A stretch of 64,000 nt of DNA from an uncultured Candidatus Entotheonella sp. (lineage in GTDB: Bacteria; Tectomicrobia; Entotheonellia; Entotheonellales; Entotheonellaceae). Location: assembly GCA_958295825.1 (NCBI GenBank), contig OY282375.1, positions 1,535,489 to 1,599,488 on the forward strand. Direction: 5' to 3'. How positions within the stretch are numbered: position 1 is the stretch's first letter; every line of letters begins with the position of its first letter. This document shows, in pieces, positions 57,130-63,311 of this stretch. The notes under the pieces are model-generated. The model made no database searches. It saw only the letters and a program-made list of their open reading frames with translations, and was not told where the DNA came from. Position numbers and translations under genes: made by a program.

Positions 57130-57705
57130 CTACAGGCCCTTGAGCACGTTCAAGAGCTCATCGTTGGGAACGAGTTCCAGAGGCGGCGTGGTCTTGTTGT
57201 AGCGCACCACGCCTTCCTTGTCGATGATCATGAAAGCCCGCTGGTTGCGACGGTAAATGACTGGCCCGAAGCCCTCTTGTTCAAGAAGGGCAGGGTCATC
57301 GAAAAGGGTGCCATAGGCCTTCGACATGCTGCGGAACATGTCGCTCAACAGGGGATAGGTGAGACCGAGCTTTTCGGCCCATGCCTTGTTGGCATCGTTG
57401 AAATCGACGCTGATACCCAGTACCTGGGCATTGGCGGCCTCGAACTTGGGCAAGTCAAGTTGGAAGGCCAGCGCTTCCTGCGTTCAAACGCCGGTAAAGG
57501 CGCCAACGTAGAAGAAAATGACCAAGTGCTTCTGGCCGATAAAATCGGACAGCTTCACCTCATCGGCAGTGGTCGACGGCAGGGCGAAGTCGGGCGCCTT
57601 TTCCCCGACCCGGAGGGCCGAGGCAGAGCTAAGAGCGCCGCAGACAAGCACTGCGGCAAACAGCAGGACAGCTGCGAACCGCCCTTGCCGTTGAATTACC
57701 TGCAT
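57130..57705 (-). CDS. exported peroxiredoxin with in-frame TGA (probable selenoprotein)
   Basis: Reading through one TGA at 57484-57486 gives a 191-residue AhpC/TSA-type peroxiredoxin with a signal peptide (FAAVLLFAAVLVCGALSSASA), then VGEKAPDFALPS. The TGA is codon 74 in FFYVGAFTGV-U-TQEALAFQ, exactly where the peroxidatic cysteine stands in FT-x-x-C. The usual Pro before this motif is Val. Downstream, VLGISVDFNDANKAW and YRRNQRAFMIIDKEG keep the fold, including the Arg. No other Cys lies in the mature part, so it would be a 1-Sec enzyme that depends on an external reductant. The RBS is aaggag. It starts 21 bp after the UGTC thioredoxin gene on the same strand. Confidence 0.82.
57462..57478 (-). 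promoter_or_regulatory. candidate bacterial SECIS hairpin
   Basis: In the mRNA, six bases after the UGA, GGAAG pairs with CUUCC around the seven-base loop CGCUGGC. The position and size are compatible with a bacterial SECIS element read by SelB. Pairing was done by eye and the sequence consensus is loose. Confidence 0.35.
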
Positions 57706-57726: not shown

Positions 57727-58296
57727 TCAGCTACGCGGCTGAGCCGCTAAATCGGCAAGATAGCGCCGGAACGGACCGCTGTCGAGGTCGAAAGGTCCGG
57801 AGGCGCGGGCAACGACCGTGCCCGCGCGGTTGATCACGAGCGTATACGGAACGCCCCGCGCACCAAGCGCACGGGCCACCGTCATTTTCTGATCGACTAG
57901 CGTGGGAAACGTGTACGCATGCCTGGCAAGGTAGGACTGCACCGTCGGCACACCGCCGCCATCAAGCGATATGGCAACCACGGCGACATCTTCATTCGGG
58001 AAGGCTTCGTGTACCCTCTGCACGGAGGGCATCTCGCTGCGGCAGGTCCCTCACCAAGTGGCCCAGAACCGTGCGACCACCACCTTGCCTTGCAGGTCGG
58101 CGGCGCGGACGAGATTGCCATCGGGATCGGGAAGTTCGAAGGCGGGGAGGGTTACAGATTCACTCGGAGCCTGCATGCCCTGAGGCAGGGCGAGGCCGTC
58201 TGCCGCATCCGCGTGCGTGGGATGCAGCGCCAAAACGGTTGCCGCGATCAGGCCGAGCCAAACCCAAGCGCGTCCTGCTCGTCTAAGTCCGGACAT
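57727..58296 (-). CDS. exported TlpA/ResA-like thioredoxin with UGTC active site (probable selenoprotein)
   Basis: From the ATG at 58296 (site aaggaggtag), reading through one TGA at 58051-58053 gives 189 residues. A signal anchor (WVWLGLIAATVLALHPTHA) leads to a redoxin domain with LPAFELPDPDGNLVRAADLQ. The TGA is codon 82 in RFWATW-U-GTCRSEMPS, which is the first position of the normal WCxxC. The second Cys85 is intact. GVPYTLVINRAG supplies the cis-Pro loop. Both halves match ResA/TlpA proteins. Its only redox residues are Sec82 and Cys85, which suggests a strong exported reductant for the adjacent peroxiredoxin. A short hairpin (GCA-loop-UGC) at 58029-58040 might act as SECIS. Confidence 0.82.
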
Positions 58297-58412: not shown

Positions 58413-59207
58413 TTAGCCGCGCAGAAAGTCCAGCAGGCCGGCGGCGGATTCGTGCGAAAAGCGCAGGCAGGCCACAAAGACGGCGAGAACGGCAAAACCC
58501 AGCAGAACCGTAATGTCTATGGCTATCGTGAAATCGGGGCCAAGGGGCGGAGCAAGGCCGCTGACGAGGGCGTGCTTGAGCAGATCAACCCCGTAGGTGA
58601 ATGGATTGATGGCGGCAACGATTTTCAAAATGTCCGGCAACTGCTGCACCGGATACAGGGCACCACTCAGGAAGAACACGGGGAAAATGACGAAGTTCAT
58701 GACGACGGCGAAGTTGTCCAGGGTCGAGCTCCACACCGCGATCAGCATGCCGAGGCTGGCACAGGCCAAGGCCGTGGCGACCAGGCCGAGCACCAGCAAC
58801 GGTAGCGACACGGCGCCCCCTATGTACCCCATCAGGGCCAACAAAACGGCGAAGGCAGCGGCCTGAACAACCGCTACAACCATGCCGCTGACCGTTTTGG
58901 CGATGACCACCCAGTAGTGGGGCAGGGGAGAAATAATCAGCAGGCGCATGATGCCGAATTCTTTGTCGTACACCACCGACAGCGAAACCAGCATGGCGGC
59001 GAACAGCATCACCATGCCGAGCAGTCCGGGCGACAGGAAGCGCTGGTAACCGCCAGACGCCGCATCGCCCAGCAAGGTGCCGAACCCCGCGCCGATGACC
59101 AGCAGCCAGATGAGCGGCCGGACCAAGGCGCTCACCAAACGGCCACGCTGGCGCACCATGCGCATCAACTCGCGCTCGATCAAGGCCCACACCGGTCGCC
59201 ACGTCAT
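58413..59207 (-). CDS. ABC-2 type permease of the pqq cluster
   Basis: The 264-residue protein has about six hydrophobic segments, including GFGTLLGD, LGMVMLFAAMLVSLSVVYD and VVMNFVIFPVFFLSGALYPVQ, with the ABC-2 loop EFGIMRLLIISPLPHYWVVIAK. It pairs with the ATPase whose stop overlaps its start. A similar ABC pair occurs in PQQ-dependent alcohol oxidation clusters elsewhere, with no established cargo. Confidence 0.85.
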   Translation of the reverse strand: MTWRPVWALIERELMRMVRQRGRLVSALVRPLIWLLVIGAGFGTLLGDAASGGYQRFLSPGLLGMVMLFAAMLVSLSVVYDKEFGIMRLLIISPLPHYWVVIAKTVSGMVVAVVQAAAFAVLLALMGYIGGAVSLPLLVLGLVATALACASLGMLIAVWSSTLDNFAVVMNFVIFPVFFLSGALYPVQQLPDILKIVAAINPFTYGVDLLKHALVSGLAPPLGPDFTIAIDITVLLGFAVLAVFVACLRFSHESAAGLLDFLRG

Positions 59208-60163
59208 ATCTCGAATCCCGCGCTCAGGGTCGGGTCATTTATCCACAGGAACACGTCGTTGAGGTTGGGCCGCCGCCAACGCACGGCCTGCACGCTGTCG
59301 TTGAGTTCCGCCTGCAACTCGGCGAACGAAAACTGTTCGTCAGGTACGCGAAAACTCGCTGTCGCACCTTCCTTGAGGCAGGGACCCAAGCGGGGCGACA
59401 GCAGCCCGGAAACCGCATCCATGTCGGTGCCGTCAATTTCCAGAACGTAGGGGCCAAATCGTCGGACCAGGGATTCGGGCGTCCCGGCGCCAATAATCCG
59501 GCCCGAGGTCAGAAAGGCAACCTGGTCGCATGCTTCGGCCTCCTCCAGATAGTGCGTGGTGAGGAAAACGGTCATAACTTCCTCACGGCGCAGCCGTTCA
59601 ATGAAGCGCCAAATACCGCGCCGGCTGGGAACGTCCAGCCCCAGGGTGGGCTCGTCTAGAAACAGAACGCGTGGCCGGTGCAGCACGCCGCGGGCAATAT
59701 CGAGCGCCCGCCGCATACCCCCGGACAGCGTGGCAACCTTCGCGTGGCGTCGCTCGCGCAGGTTGAACAATTCCAGCAGTTCGTCGCTGCGCTGGCGAAT
59801 GGTGGCGCGGGACAGATTGCGCAGCATGCCGGCAAAACGCAGGTTTTCGTCCACCGTCAGCGTGCGATCCAGCGCCGACTCCTGGAAAACCAAGCCAACC
59901 TCCCGGCGCACCGCGACGCTCTCTCTGAGGACGTCGTGCCCGGCAACGCTCGCCTGTCCTGCCGTAGGGCGCGCCAAGGTGGTCAACATGTGGATGGTGG
60001 TGGTTTTGCCGGACCCATTGGGGCCGAGCAGGCCGAAAAACTGGCCTGCCGGAATGGCTAACTGCAGCCGGTCAACGGCTTGCAGCCCGCCGTAGGCCTT
60101 GCTCAGGTCGATTGTCTGGATAGCGAGGGAAACATCTGATTGCGGCAAGGGGGCGACCTGCAT
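59204..60163 (-). CDS. ABC transporter ATP-binding protein of the pqq cluster
   Basis: The 319-residue ATPase shows Walker A GPNGSGKTTTI, a Q-loop VGLVFQESALDRTLTV, signature TLSGGMRRALDIA, and Walker B VLFLDEPTLGLDV. The C-terminal extension resembles exporters of the DrrA type and the PQQ_ABC_ATP family. It lies 33 bp downstream of pqqE on the same strand, so it is likely in the same transcript. Confidence 0.88.
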   Translation of the reverse strand: MQVAPLPQSDVSLAIQTIDLSKAYGGLQAVDRLQLAIPAGQFFGLLGPNGSGKTTTIHMLTTLARPTAGQASVAGHDVLRESVAVRREVGLVFQESALDRTLTVDENLRFAGMLRNLSRATIRQRSDELLELFNLRERRHAKVATLSGGMRRALDIARGVLHRPRVLFLDEPTLGLDVPSRRGIWRFIERLRREEVMTVFLTTHYLEEAEACDQVAFLTSGRIIGAGTPESLVRRFGPYVLEIDGTDMDAVSGLLSPRLGPCLKEGATASFRVPDEQFSFAELQAELNDSVQAVRWRRPNLNDVFLWINDPTLSAGFEI

Positions 60164-60196
60164 GTGAGTTAGGCCAAGTGCGATATCCGGCGGCCG

Positions 60197-61336
60197 CTAG
60201 ACGCCAGCCTCGACAAACTGACGAGAGTTCTTGTTGCTGCGAAATATCGGAAGTTGATCGGCAGGCGGAACGACCTGATCCTCGTCGATGGCCTCGAGCA
60301 CGATGGCGTGCTGCGGCGACAGGCTGCAAACGGGGTCCGCGTTGGCCGCGTCGCCCGTCAGCATGTAGGCTTGGCAACGGCAGCCGCCAAAGTCCTTGGC
60401 GCGCTCCGGGCAGGTGCGACAGGGCTCCTTCATCCAGGCCTCGCCCCGAAAGGCATTGAAGGCCGGGGATTCGTGCCATATCCAATGCAGGCTCGCATCA
60501 CGCACGTTGGGGAAGTCCAGGCCCGGCAGTTGATGGGCCGCGTGGCAGGGCAGGGCAGTGCCGTCCGGCGCTACGTTCAAGAACACGGACCCCCAACCGG
60601 CCATGCACGGTTTGGGACGATCCTCGAAGTAATCGGGCACGACATAGTAGACCTTCATGCGGCCCTTGAAGCGTTCCTGGTAGTCGTGCGCAATGGCTTC
60701 GGCGCGCTCCACCTGCTCGCGGGTCGGCAAGAGTTGAGAACGGTTGACCTTCGCCCAGCCGTAGTACTGGGTGTTGGCCAACTCGATGTAATCGGCCTCC
60801 AACTCCTCGGCCATTTGCAGGATTTGCTCGGTCTGATCGATGTTCTGCCGATGCAGCACGACGTTCATCACCATCGGGTAATCGTAGTGTTTGATCAGCC
60901 GGGCCATGGCAAGCTTGCGTTCAAAGGTCTTGGCACCGCCAATATAGTCGTTCAGTTCCGGGGTATTGGCCTGAAAGCTCAACTGGATATGGTCCAGTCC
61001 GGCTTCCTTCAGGGCCGCGATACGGGCCTCGTCCATGCCGATGCCGGAAGTGATCAGGTTGGAATAATAGCCTAGCCGTCTGGCTTCGCGCGCCAAGTCG
61101 ACGAGGTCCTTGCGAACCAGGGGCTCGCCGCCCGAGAAGCCGAGCTGCGTGGCGCCCATGGCGCGGCCTTCCTGAAGTACCCGTATCCATGCCTCGGTGG
61201 TTAGCTCGTTCTGATACTTAGTGTAGTCTATGGGGTTGGAGCAATAAAGGCATTGCAGCGGGCAGCGGTAGGTCAATTCCGCCAGCAGCCACAGGGGGTT
61301 AGTCTGCCCGTTCGATGCAGAGCCAGCCGTTTGCAT
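60197..61336 (-). CDS. pqqE: PqqA peptide cyclase PqqE (radical SAM)
   Basis: The 379-residue radical SAM enzyme forms the Glu-Tyr cross-link in PqqA. The 4Fe-4S/SAM site is CPLQCLYC near residues 30-37. The SPASM region has [23 protein letters not shown] and, later, [33 protein letters not shown] is typical. Its start overlaps the 3' end of pqqD by 38 bp, which couples the two genes. Confidence 0.95.
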
Positions 61337-61592
61337 AAGCGTCCTCCAGAAACTCGCGCACGTCCGCGGCGATGTCGTCCTGCGGAAATGCCTGTTGCAG
61401 TTCCTCGACCACTTGAGTGACGGATTTGGCCTCTTGGCAGCGGGTCAGGATTTCTGCGGCCGGGCCGTTGAGGGTCACCATGCCCTCGGGATACAACAAC
61501 ACGTGAGCCTGCTGCACCTCTTCCCACTGCAAGCGAAAGTGGCGCGTGATGCTGATGATGTCATCCGGTTGCAGGGCCGCGGACTCTGCCAT
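61299..61592 (-). CDS. pqqD: PQQ biosynthesis chaperone PqqD
   Basis: The 97-residue protein binds PqqA and presents it to PqqE. The family pattern is [21 protein letters not shown] followed by [13 protein letters not shown]. It is preceded by a gaaggagagcc site. The C-terminus overlaps pqqE. Confidence 0.92.
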
Positions 61593-61620
61593 AGTGGCTC
61601 TCCTTCGCCATGCCGTGCTG

Positions 61621-62367
61621 TCAGCGCTCGATCAGAGCGTATTTCTTGTGCGGTGGCAGGGTTTCTTGGGAAATGTAAGCCATGTACATGGCGTCCAGCA
61701 TCGTCCACAACACGTCGAGCTTGAATTCCAGAATATCCAGGGCGCGCTCCTGCTGCGCCCGGGTCTTGAAATAATCCAGGGTGACGCGGAGGCCGTGCTG
61801 CACGTCGCGGCGTGCCTCGCTCAGGCGCATGCGGAAATAGTCCAGACCCTCCGGGCCAATCCACGGGTAATGCTTGGGAAATGACTCAATGCGCGAGGCA
61901 TGTGCGTCCGGCGCGAAAAGCTCCGTGAGCGACGAGCACACCGCCTCCTGCCAAGGACGCGAACGGGCAAAGTTGCGATAGGCGTCAACCGCAAAACGCA
62001 CGCCCGGCAGGACGTGCTCCTCACTGAGGACTGCCTCGCGCGTCAAACCACAGGCGACGCCCAGCCGCAGCCAAGCTTCGATGCCGCCTTCGTCGCCGTC
62101 CGTGCCGTCCTGATCAAGCATACGCAGAATCCACTCGCGCCGCACTTCCCGGTCCGGACAGTTGGCCATGACCGCGGCGTCTTTCAACGGGATATTTTTT
62201 TGATAATAAAACCGATTGGCCACCCAGCCCTGCATTTGCGAACGAGTCAGCTTACCCTCGGTCATCATGATCTGGAAGGGATGATAGATATGATATGAGG
62301 TGCCCTTCTCCTTCAACTTCTCGTGAAATTCCTCACGACTCCAGGGGGCCGTTTCGGAAGCAGACAT
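61621..62367 (-). CDS. pqqC: pyrroloquinoline-quinone synthase PqqC
   Basis: The 248-residue heme oxygenase-like fold enzyme does the final eight-electron oxidation to PQQ. It has the family's [57 protein letters not shown] and a tail with [17 protein letters not shown]. The length is the family norm. pqqD follows after 28 bp. Confidence 0.94.
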
Positions 62368-62396
62368 ACCGGCAACTCCTTAAGCTGCATGGCGCG

Positions 62397-63311
62397 TTAT
62401 AAGATAATGTCCATCCCGTCGTAGGCAACTTCAACACCCGCCTCCTCGACAATGGCGCGTTCCGGGGAGTCCTCATCAAGTATCGGATTAGTGTTGTTGA
62501 CGTGAATCAGAATCTTCCGCGGGCGCTGCAACGAGGCGAGGACACTCAATATGCCATCGTCGCCCGATTGCGGCAGGTGCCCCATGTCACTGGCGAGTTT
62601 TTTGCCCAGGCCAGCAATCACCATCTCATCGTCCCGCCAGAACGTCCCATCGACCAACAGGCAATCCGCTTCCGCCATGTAAGGCAATAGATGCGGCTCG
62701 ATTTTGCCCAAGCCAGGCGCGTAGAACAGGTTCTTGCCGCTGCGCAGGTCTTCCACGTGCACGCTGATATTGTCGCCAAGGTGCGGGTCGTGGCGGTGCG
62801 GAGAATAGGGCGGCGCCTTGCTGCTCAGCGGCACCGCGGTGAAACGCAGGTCAGCGACGCCGTCGATGGTGAAGTGGGAACCGGCTTCCAGCGGCACCGG
62901 ATGCCAATTGACGCCGCAGTAATGGCTTAGCACGTTAAACAGTGGGTGTCCGGTGGTGAGGTCCTGGCGCACCATGTCGGTGCAGTAAATGTCGAGCGGC
63001 TGCCCTTCGCGCAACACCAGCAGGCCGGTCGTATGGTCGATTTGACTGTCGATGAGGACGATGCCGACGATGCCCGTGTCGCGCAGGGTTCGGGCCGGCT
63101 GCATGGCCGGGAAGGCTTCCAGTTGGGTACGAATGTCGGGGGAGGCGTTGAAGAGCACCCAGTTGACGTTGTCACTGCTGACAGCTATGGAAGATTGGGT
63201 GCGGGCCGTGGCGGTGATCTGCCCCTGGCGCAGCCTGCTACAGTTCGAGCAGTTGCAATTCCACTGCGGGAAGCCGCCGCCGGCAGCCGACCCGAGAACA
63301 TGTATGCGCAT
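62397..63311 (-). CDS. pqqB: PQQ biosynthesis hydroxylase PqqB
   Basis: The 304-residue metallo-beta-lactamase-fold protein begins [19 protein letters not shown] with NCSNCSRLR, the typical Cys region. Later features are [19 protein letters not shown] (metal-binding loop) and [16 protein letters not shown]. It hydroxylates the cross-linked tyrosine. It starts the visible pqq operon. No clear pqqA was found in the ~220 bp upstream. Confidence 0.94.

Follow-up and report, generated by a model that had tools for sequence, protein, structure and literature searches.

A two-gene operon of Candidatus Entotheonella with in-frame UGA codons, predicted to encode two exported selenoproteins of a probable periplasmic peroxide-reducing relay

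The window (the whole stretch of DNA that was analysed, 64,000 nucleotides from an uncultured Candidatus Entotheonella sp.) carries two adjoining genes on the same strand, each with an in-frame TGA at its redox site and with sequence of the same protein family on both flanks of this codon (Table 1). The genes include: (i) prx, which is preceded by the ribosome-binding site AAGGAG seven bases 5' of its ATG, and (ii) a tlpA-like gene, which is located 21 bases upstream of prx and has the ribosome-binding site AAAGGAGG. The second gene is absent from the original prediction, which described prx by itself; the unit is a two-gene operon rather than a lone peroxiredoxin. The tlpA-like gene also ends at a TGA, so that the codon is used both ways within this gene. 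Upstream of the operon, the window encodes (58413-63311, minus strand) an ABC-2 permease and ATPase, PedC-like and PQQ_ABC_ATP-like with scores below the cutoffs, followed by pqqE, pqqD, pqqC and pqqB. These PQQ and ABC transporter genes were rejected as operon partners, since the wider gene neighbourhood of the pair is not conserved in 12 relatives.

Table 1. Features of the selenoprotein operon, in positions of the window.
Feature	Position	Strand	Detail
prx, exported 1-Sec peroxiredoxin (export predicted)	57130..57705	-	191 aa + TAG stop, ATG start
Predicted Sec74 codon, in-frame TGA at the peroxidatic position of Prx (FTGV-U-TQEA)	57484..57486	-	TGA in 21/21 orthologues
Predicted signal peptide of Prx, cleavage about SSASA/LRVG	57616..57705	-	hydrophobic segment and AxA-type site
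SECIS-like hairpin of prx, GGCCUU-CC-AACUUG-[ACUUGCC]-CAAGUU-C-GAGGCC	57436..57469	-	
tlpA-like, exported TlpA/ResA-type thioredoxin-fold selenoprotein (predicted)	57727..58296	-	189 aa + TGA stop, ATG start
Predicted Sec codon of tlpA-like gene, in-frame TGA in FWATW-U-GTC (UxxC)	58051..58053	-	TGA in 20/20 readable orthologues
TGA as real stop of tlpA-like gene	57727..57729	-	
SECIS-like hairpin of tlpA-like gene, UGCCCUC-[CGUGCA]-GAGGGUA	58012..58031	-	7 bp; compensatory changes in relatives

The prx gene is open from ATG to TAG apart from a single TGA. As originally predicted, the two half-frames join through this codon alone, and the residue it replaces, placed at its exact coordinates by that prediction, is the peroxidatic cysteine. 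The claim of family matches on both sides also holds, as each half matches Pfam AhpC-TSA on its own: residues 33-72 align with positions 1-39 of the profile (31.8 bits) and the downstream half with positions 53-123 (56.8 bits), and the joined protein reaches 113.8 bits, where the cutoff of PF00578 is 26. The mature protein was said to lack cysteine and to be exported; its sole cysteine (C22) indeed resides in the signal peptide, and an N-terminal segment resembling a signal peptide is noted in 21 of 21 proteins, from which export is predicted. Since Cys is absent after residue 40 in all 21 orthologues, Prx is assigned to the 1-Sec type, which depends on reduction by another molecule; the product of the neighbouring tlpA-like gene is a candidate reductant.

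The peroxidatic position of Prx and the threonine three residues before it are invariant among the orthologues, whereas the proline of the PxxxTxxC/U motif, seven residues before the Sec, is replaced by V, I or T in every one (21/21). The arginine of the KRxWF stretch is missing from 3 of 21. None of the NCBIfam peroxiredoxin models is matched above its cutoff, the PrxU model (NF040737) scoring 55.6 bits against a cutoff of 270, and the closest solved relatives are the archaeal 2ywn and the mycobacterial AhpE. The AlphaFold model is of low confidence (pLDDT 52). Judged by its sequence, Prx would be at most a divergent member of the peroxiredoxins, and its activity could be altered through loss of the motif proline.

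In the TlpA-like protein, the TGA takes the place of the leading cysteine of CxxC. Every TlpA orthologue has one cysteine, the resolving Cys of UxxC, and both UxxC and P117 are invariant. AlphaFold models the protein with high confidence (pLDDT 94.4), and the best PDB matches of this model are the Geobacter thioredoxin-family protein 3kcm (TM 0.84/0.92), TlpA 1jfu and ResA 1st9. With a modelled thioredoxin fold, a UxxC motif, a cis-Pro and an N-terminus that resembles a signal peptide, the protein is predicted to be a TlpA/ResA-type reductase. It exceeds the cutoff of no NCBIfam model, and scores 80.2 bits against a cutoff of 300 with NF041054 (ResA-like WAxxUGC).

A genome devoid of Sec machinery would be at odds with the original prediction; selA, selB, selC and selD are all found in the genome of this bacterium (4.29 Mb, one contig). 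The selB gene (366 bits, cutoff 242) is located directly after selA (L001), selD scores 318.8 bits (cutoff 125), and tRNA-Sec scores 73.9 bits (gathering 47) and has the anticodon UCA by ARAGORN, which finds no tRNA within the 64-kb window. Genomes with the operon encode selB above the family cutoff in 20 of 20 cases compared to 6 of 21 non-carriers (Fisher exact p about 1.1e-6), where the non-carriers are the first ones listed and unmatched, and related genomes are not independent. Directly 3' of selA-selB is an AhpD-like gene in the Cys form (CPYC motif, L001:3427-4038). The selD gene (L016:1390-3870) is fused behind an NADH-dehydrogenase-like domain, a fusion already known (PMC2398784), and has Cys rather than Sec in its CGGCGAK loop.

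Hairpins follow both in-frame UGAs. The five-base-pair hairpin noted earlier after the prx UGA is recovered as an AACUUG/CAAGUU stem of 5-6 bp, to which an outer GGCCUU/GAGGCC stem is added. Its apical loop begins 28-29 nt past the UGA, and both stems are present in nearly all sequences, the outer one in two registers; compensatory pairing was looked for and is weak. The hairpin of the tlpA-like gene is paired in 112 of 112 cells, across all 16 distinct sequences. Two of its pairs show double changes from C-G to U-A, five in total, and only 1 of 500 shuffles is as good in pairing, cells and score. The encoded residue is altered by some of these changes, with K in place of R and, in one sequence, S and T in place of P and a further residue. 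Bacterial SECIS rules call for a loop of 3-9 nt with a G in its first two positions, a stem of 4-16 bp, a distance of 16-37 nt from the UGA and a minimum free energy of at most -7.5 (PMC13188914 Fig. 2). The tlpA hairpin falls within these limits (7 bp, loop CGUGCA, 26 nt, -10.3 kcal/mol), as does the prx hairpin if the closing G-C is counted as loop (5 bp, loop GACUUGCCC, 27 nt); formation of this pair leaves the prx loop without an early G. The prx 42-mer with the outer stem folds at -16.5 kcal/mol. Single-sequence folding z-scores of the hairpins are modest, and an Rfam search, at gathering or at E up to 5, yields neither a SECIS nor any other RNA from a collection that covers bacterial SECIS poorly.

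Synonymous codon identity over codons 1-17 past the UGA is 0.70 in prx and 0.72 in the tlpA-like gene, compared to 0.45 and 0.44 expected from codon use, and is mostly 0.34-0.56 elsewhere in the two genes. The excess in prx extends to codon 30, past the hairpin. Three genomes (L033:3591-3665, L055 and L062) share one and the same sequence over the first 75 nt behind the prx UGA, and their proteins differ elsewhere; this identity could reflect RNA constraint, gene conversion or transfer.

The operon is carried by 4 Entotheonellaceae and by 16 genomes that are, or were sampled near, Betaproteobacteria-labelled MAGs; palsa_1004 and RYN_557 are two MAGs so labelled that have the pair. The prx TGA is found in 4 of 4 Entotheonellaceae genomes examined, one of which is recorded as Candidatus Entotheonella, and this family forms one supported group in a concatenated-protein tree. 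In a 399-genome sample of the order of RYN_557, Prx is matched at E at most 1e-35 in 15 genomes (16 genes, one TGA each), and at this threshold no Cys form is found. An independent TlpA search in a sample of the same order identifies 14 genomes, again with one TGA each; these same 14 are shared with the Prx search, and RYN_557 is not in the TlpA list. The two genes are never apart among about 398 genomes; in one genome (G061), they lie on either side of a contig break. RYN_557 (G006) has two copies of the whole Sec operon (L047 and L062). Overall, the TGA is present in 21 of 21 Prx genes (20 genomes), with frames intact on both sides, and in 20 of 20 readable TlpA genes, and none of these has a Cys version. 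No orthologue, Sec or Cys, is detected when sampling is extended to 368 other genomes from the class and 398 from the phylum; the pair thus clusters in the Entotheonellaceae and in part of a single order. No relatives are detected on the viral contigs searched, and a plasmid search yields Prx matches of under 60 percent identity only.

The operon is proposed to encode a periplasmic peroxide-reducing relay, a reading that is probable on balance. With a hairpin 25-30 nt further downstream as the guide, SelB and Sec-tRNA would insert selenocysteine at the internal UGA of each gene, and such decoding at both UGAs is almost certain from the active-site position and conservation of the codons, the Sec genes and the hairpins. 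Export of both proteins is very likely, as predicted from their N-termini. Prx would then act as a 1-Sec peroxidase, the lone selenol of which attacks H2O2 or an organic peroxide to form a selenenic acid; a peroxide-type reaction is likely. Lacking a resolving Cys, Prx would be reduced by the TlpA-like partner, in which Sec attacks and the UxxC cysteine resolves. Provided that Sec decoding, export and the peroxide reaction hold, this partnership is fairly likely, with linkage and co-occurrence as its basis. The TlpA-like protein would be re-reduced from the membrane, probably by DsbD; a DsbD-family membrane protein (690-residue open frame) is encoded in the genome and is a plausible electron source. 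A bolder version, to which we give slightly less than even weight, is that peroxide detoxification in the periplasm is wholly selenium-based, with a Sec-only peroxidase regenerated by a Sec thioredoxin via a diselenide, and with the two-gene cassette inherited across Entotheonella and Betaproteobacteria-labelled lineages without a cysteine counterpart.

Other readings of the UGA codons carry very little weight. TGA also ends genes in the normal way in this genome, the tlpA-like gene among them, and the in-frame TGAs might accordingly be ordinary stops that yield short proteins through pseudogenes, sequencing errors or programmed truncation. This is highly improbable: the TGA is common to 41 of 41 readable genes from 20 genomes of two groups, the downstream frames are intact and under purifying selection (dN/dS well under 1), and Sec machinery and SECIS-like structures are present. 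Conservation of the TGA in all orthologues identified makes sequencing error and pseudogene formation very unlikely explanations. An open frame would equally be expected if UGA were recoded to Cys or Trp via a suppressor or an altered code, which is no less improbable, since a tRNA-Sec with the UCA anticodon, SelA, SelB and SelD are all found, TGA still serves as a stop and hairpins lie behind both codons.

With Sec decoding preferred for both genes, the function of each product has its own alternatives. TlpA proteins elsewhere serve clients in copper-site or cytochrome maturation. Both proteins may likewise be selenoproteins that share an operon because each responds to oxidative stress, the TlpA-like protein serving another periplasmic client and Prx using a different donor. 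The TlpA structures nearest to the model, among them complexes with ScoI and cytochrome oxidase subunit II, and the lack of a conserved wider neighbourhood are consistent with this reading; it is nonetheless unlikely, as the two genes are never found apart and Prx, without a resolving Cys, needs an external reductant. Less likely still, the Prx-fold protein may be a redox sensor, a selenenylating relay or a thiol oxidase, loss of the proline and fixation of Sec marking another chemistry. Replacement of this proline in all orthologues, the sub-cutoff NCBIfam scores and the three proteins without the KRxWF arginine point in this direction, while the invariant threonine and peroxidatic position, the strong AhpC-TSA match and the kinship to 2ywn and AhpE argue for a peroxidase.

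Sec-Prx (TxxU) and Sec TlpA-like (UxxC) proteins are listed selenoprotein families (PMC13188914 Table 1). Like the Sec-Prx family, which includes PrxU of Eubacterium acidaminophilum and metagenomic Prx proteins (PMC13188914, PMC1088965), the Prx described here has an AhpC-TSA fold, a peroxidatic Sec and a Thr three residues before it. It differs from this family and PrxU in its predicted signal peptide, its lack of any mature Cys, its obligate tlpA neighbour and its lack of the PxxxTxxU proline, the V, I or T at this position departing from the published description of Sec-Prx (PMC13188914). A single cytosolic PrxU was considered as an identity for the locus and rejected. The TlpA-like protein shares UxxC, a TlpA/ResA-type fold and predicted export with the Sec TlpA/Prx-like thiol:disulfide oxidoreductases (PF00578/cd02966; PMC13188914 Table 1), but is below the cutoffs of NF041054 and other NCBIfam models and is, in the genomes described here, always paired with the Sec-Prx.

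Adjacent selenoprotein genes are known from ocean reads as Prx/SelW, Prx/Prx-like 2 and Prx-like/AhpD-like pairs (PMC2398784). These resemble the operon in that two selenoprotein genes adjoin and one encodes a Prx; by contrast, the partner here is of the TlpA/ResA type with UxxC, the pair is found in whole genomes of two groups and both proteins are predicted to be exported. The single Prx/Prx-like 2 read may or may not be the pair reported here. The Grd, Prd, SAO and Tso operons also encode several selenoproteins each, presumed to act in one pathway, but are anaerobic amino-acid or organometallic systems and not systems of extracytoplasmic peroxide reduction (PMC13188914). No description of an exported Prx-U/TlpA-U pair was found in a search of the open-access literature, and earlier annotation elsewhere is possible. 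Such genes are easily annotated as fragments, because gene callers stop at both TGAs.

In a 2006 survey, Sec-decoding Alpha- and Betaproteobacteria had no selenoprotein other than fdhA (PMC1794560). The pair would represent a second, exported and paired use of Sec, in 3-4 percent of the sampled order, including Betaproteobacteria-labelled MAGs, and in all Entotheonellaceae examined. If the relay is true, it would be a natural case in which a peroxidase and its reductant have both moved to selenium, possibly with diselenide electron exchange, and would account for the expense of Sec to a cell in proteins outside the cytoplasm. With its small size and no further cysteines, the pair lends itself to tests in E. 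coli via the Sec machinery of this host.

A second peroxiredoxin gene with an in-frame TGA (FTGG-U-TEQA; L030:1498-1959) lies roughly 26 kb ahead of the window, near genome position 1509687, and is also noted in two relatives (L028 and L029). Its product lacks both a signal peptide and the motif proline and is probably an ordinary cytosolic Sec-Prx.
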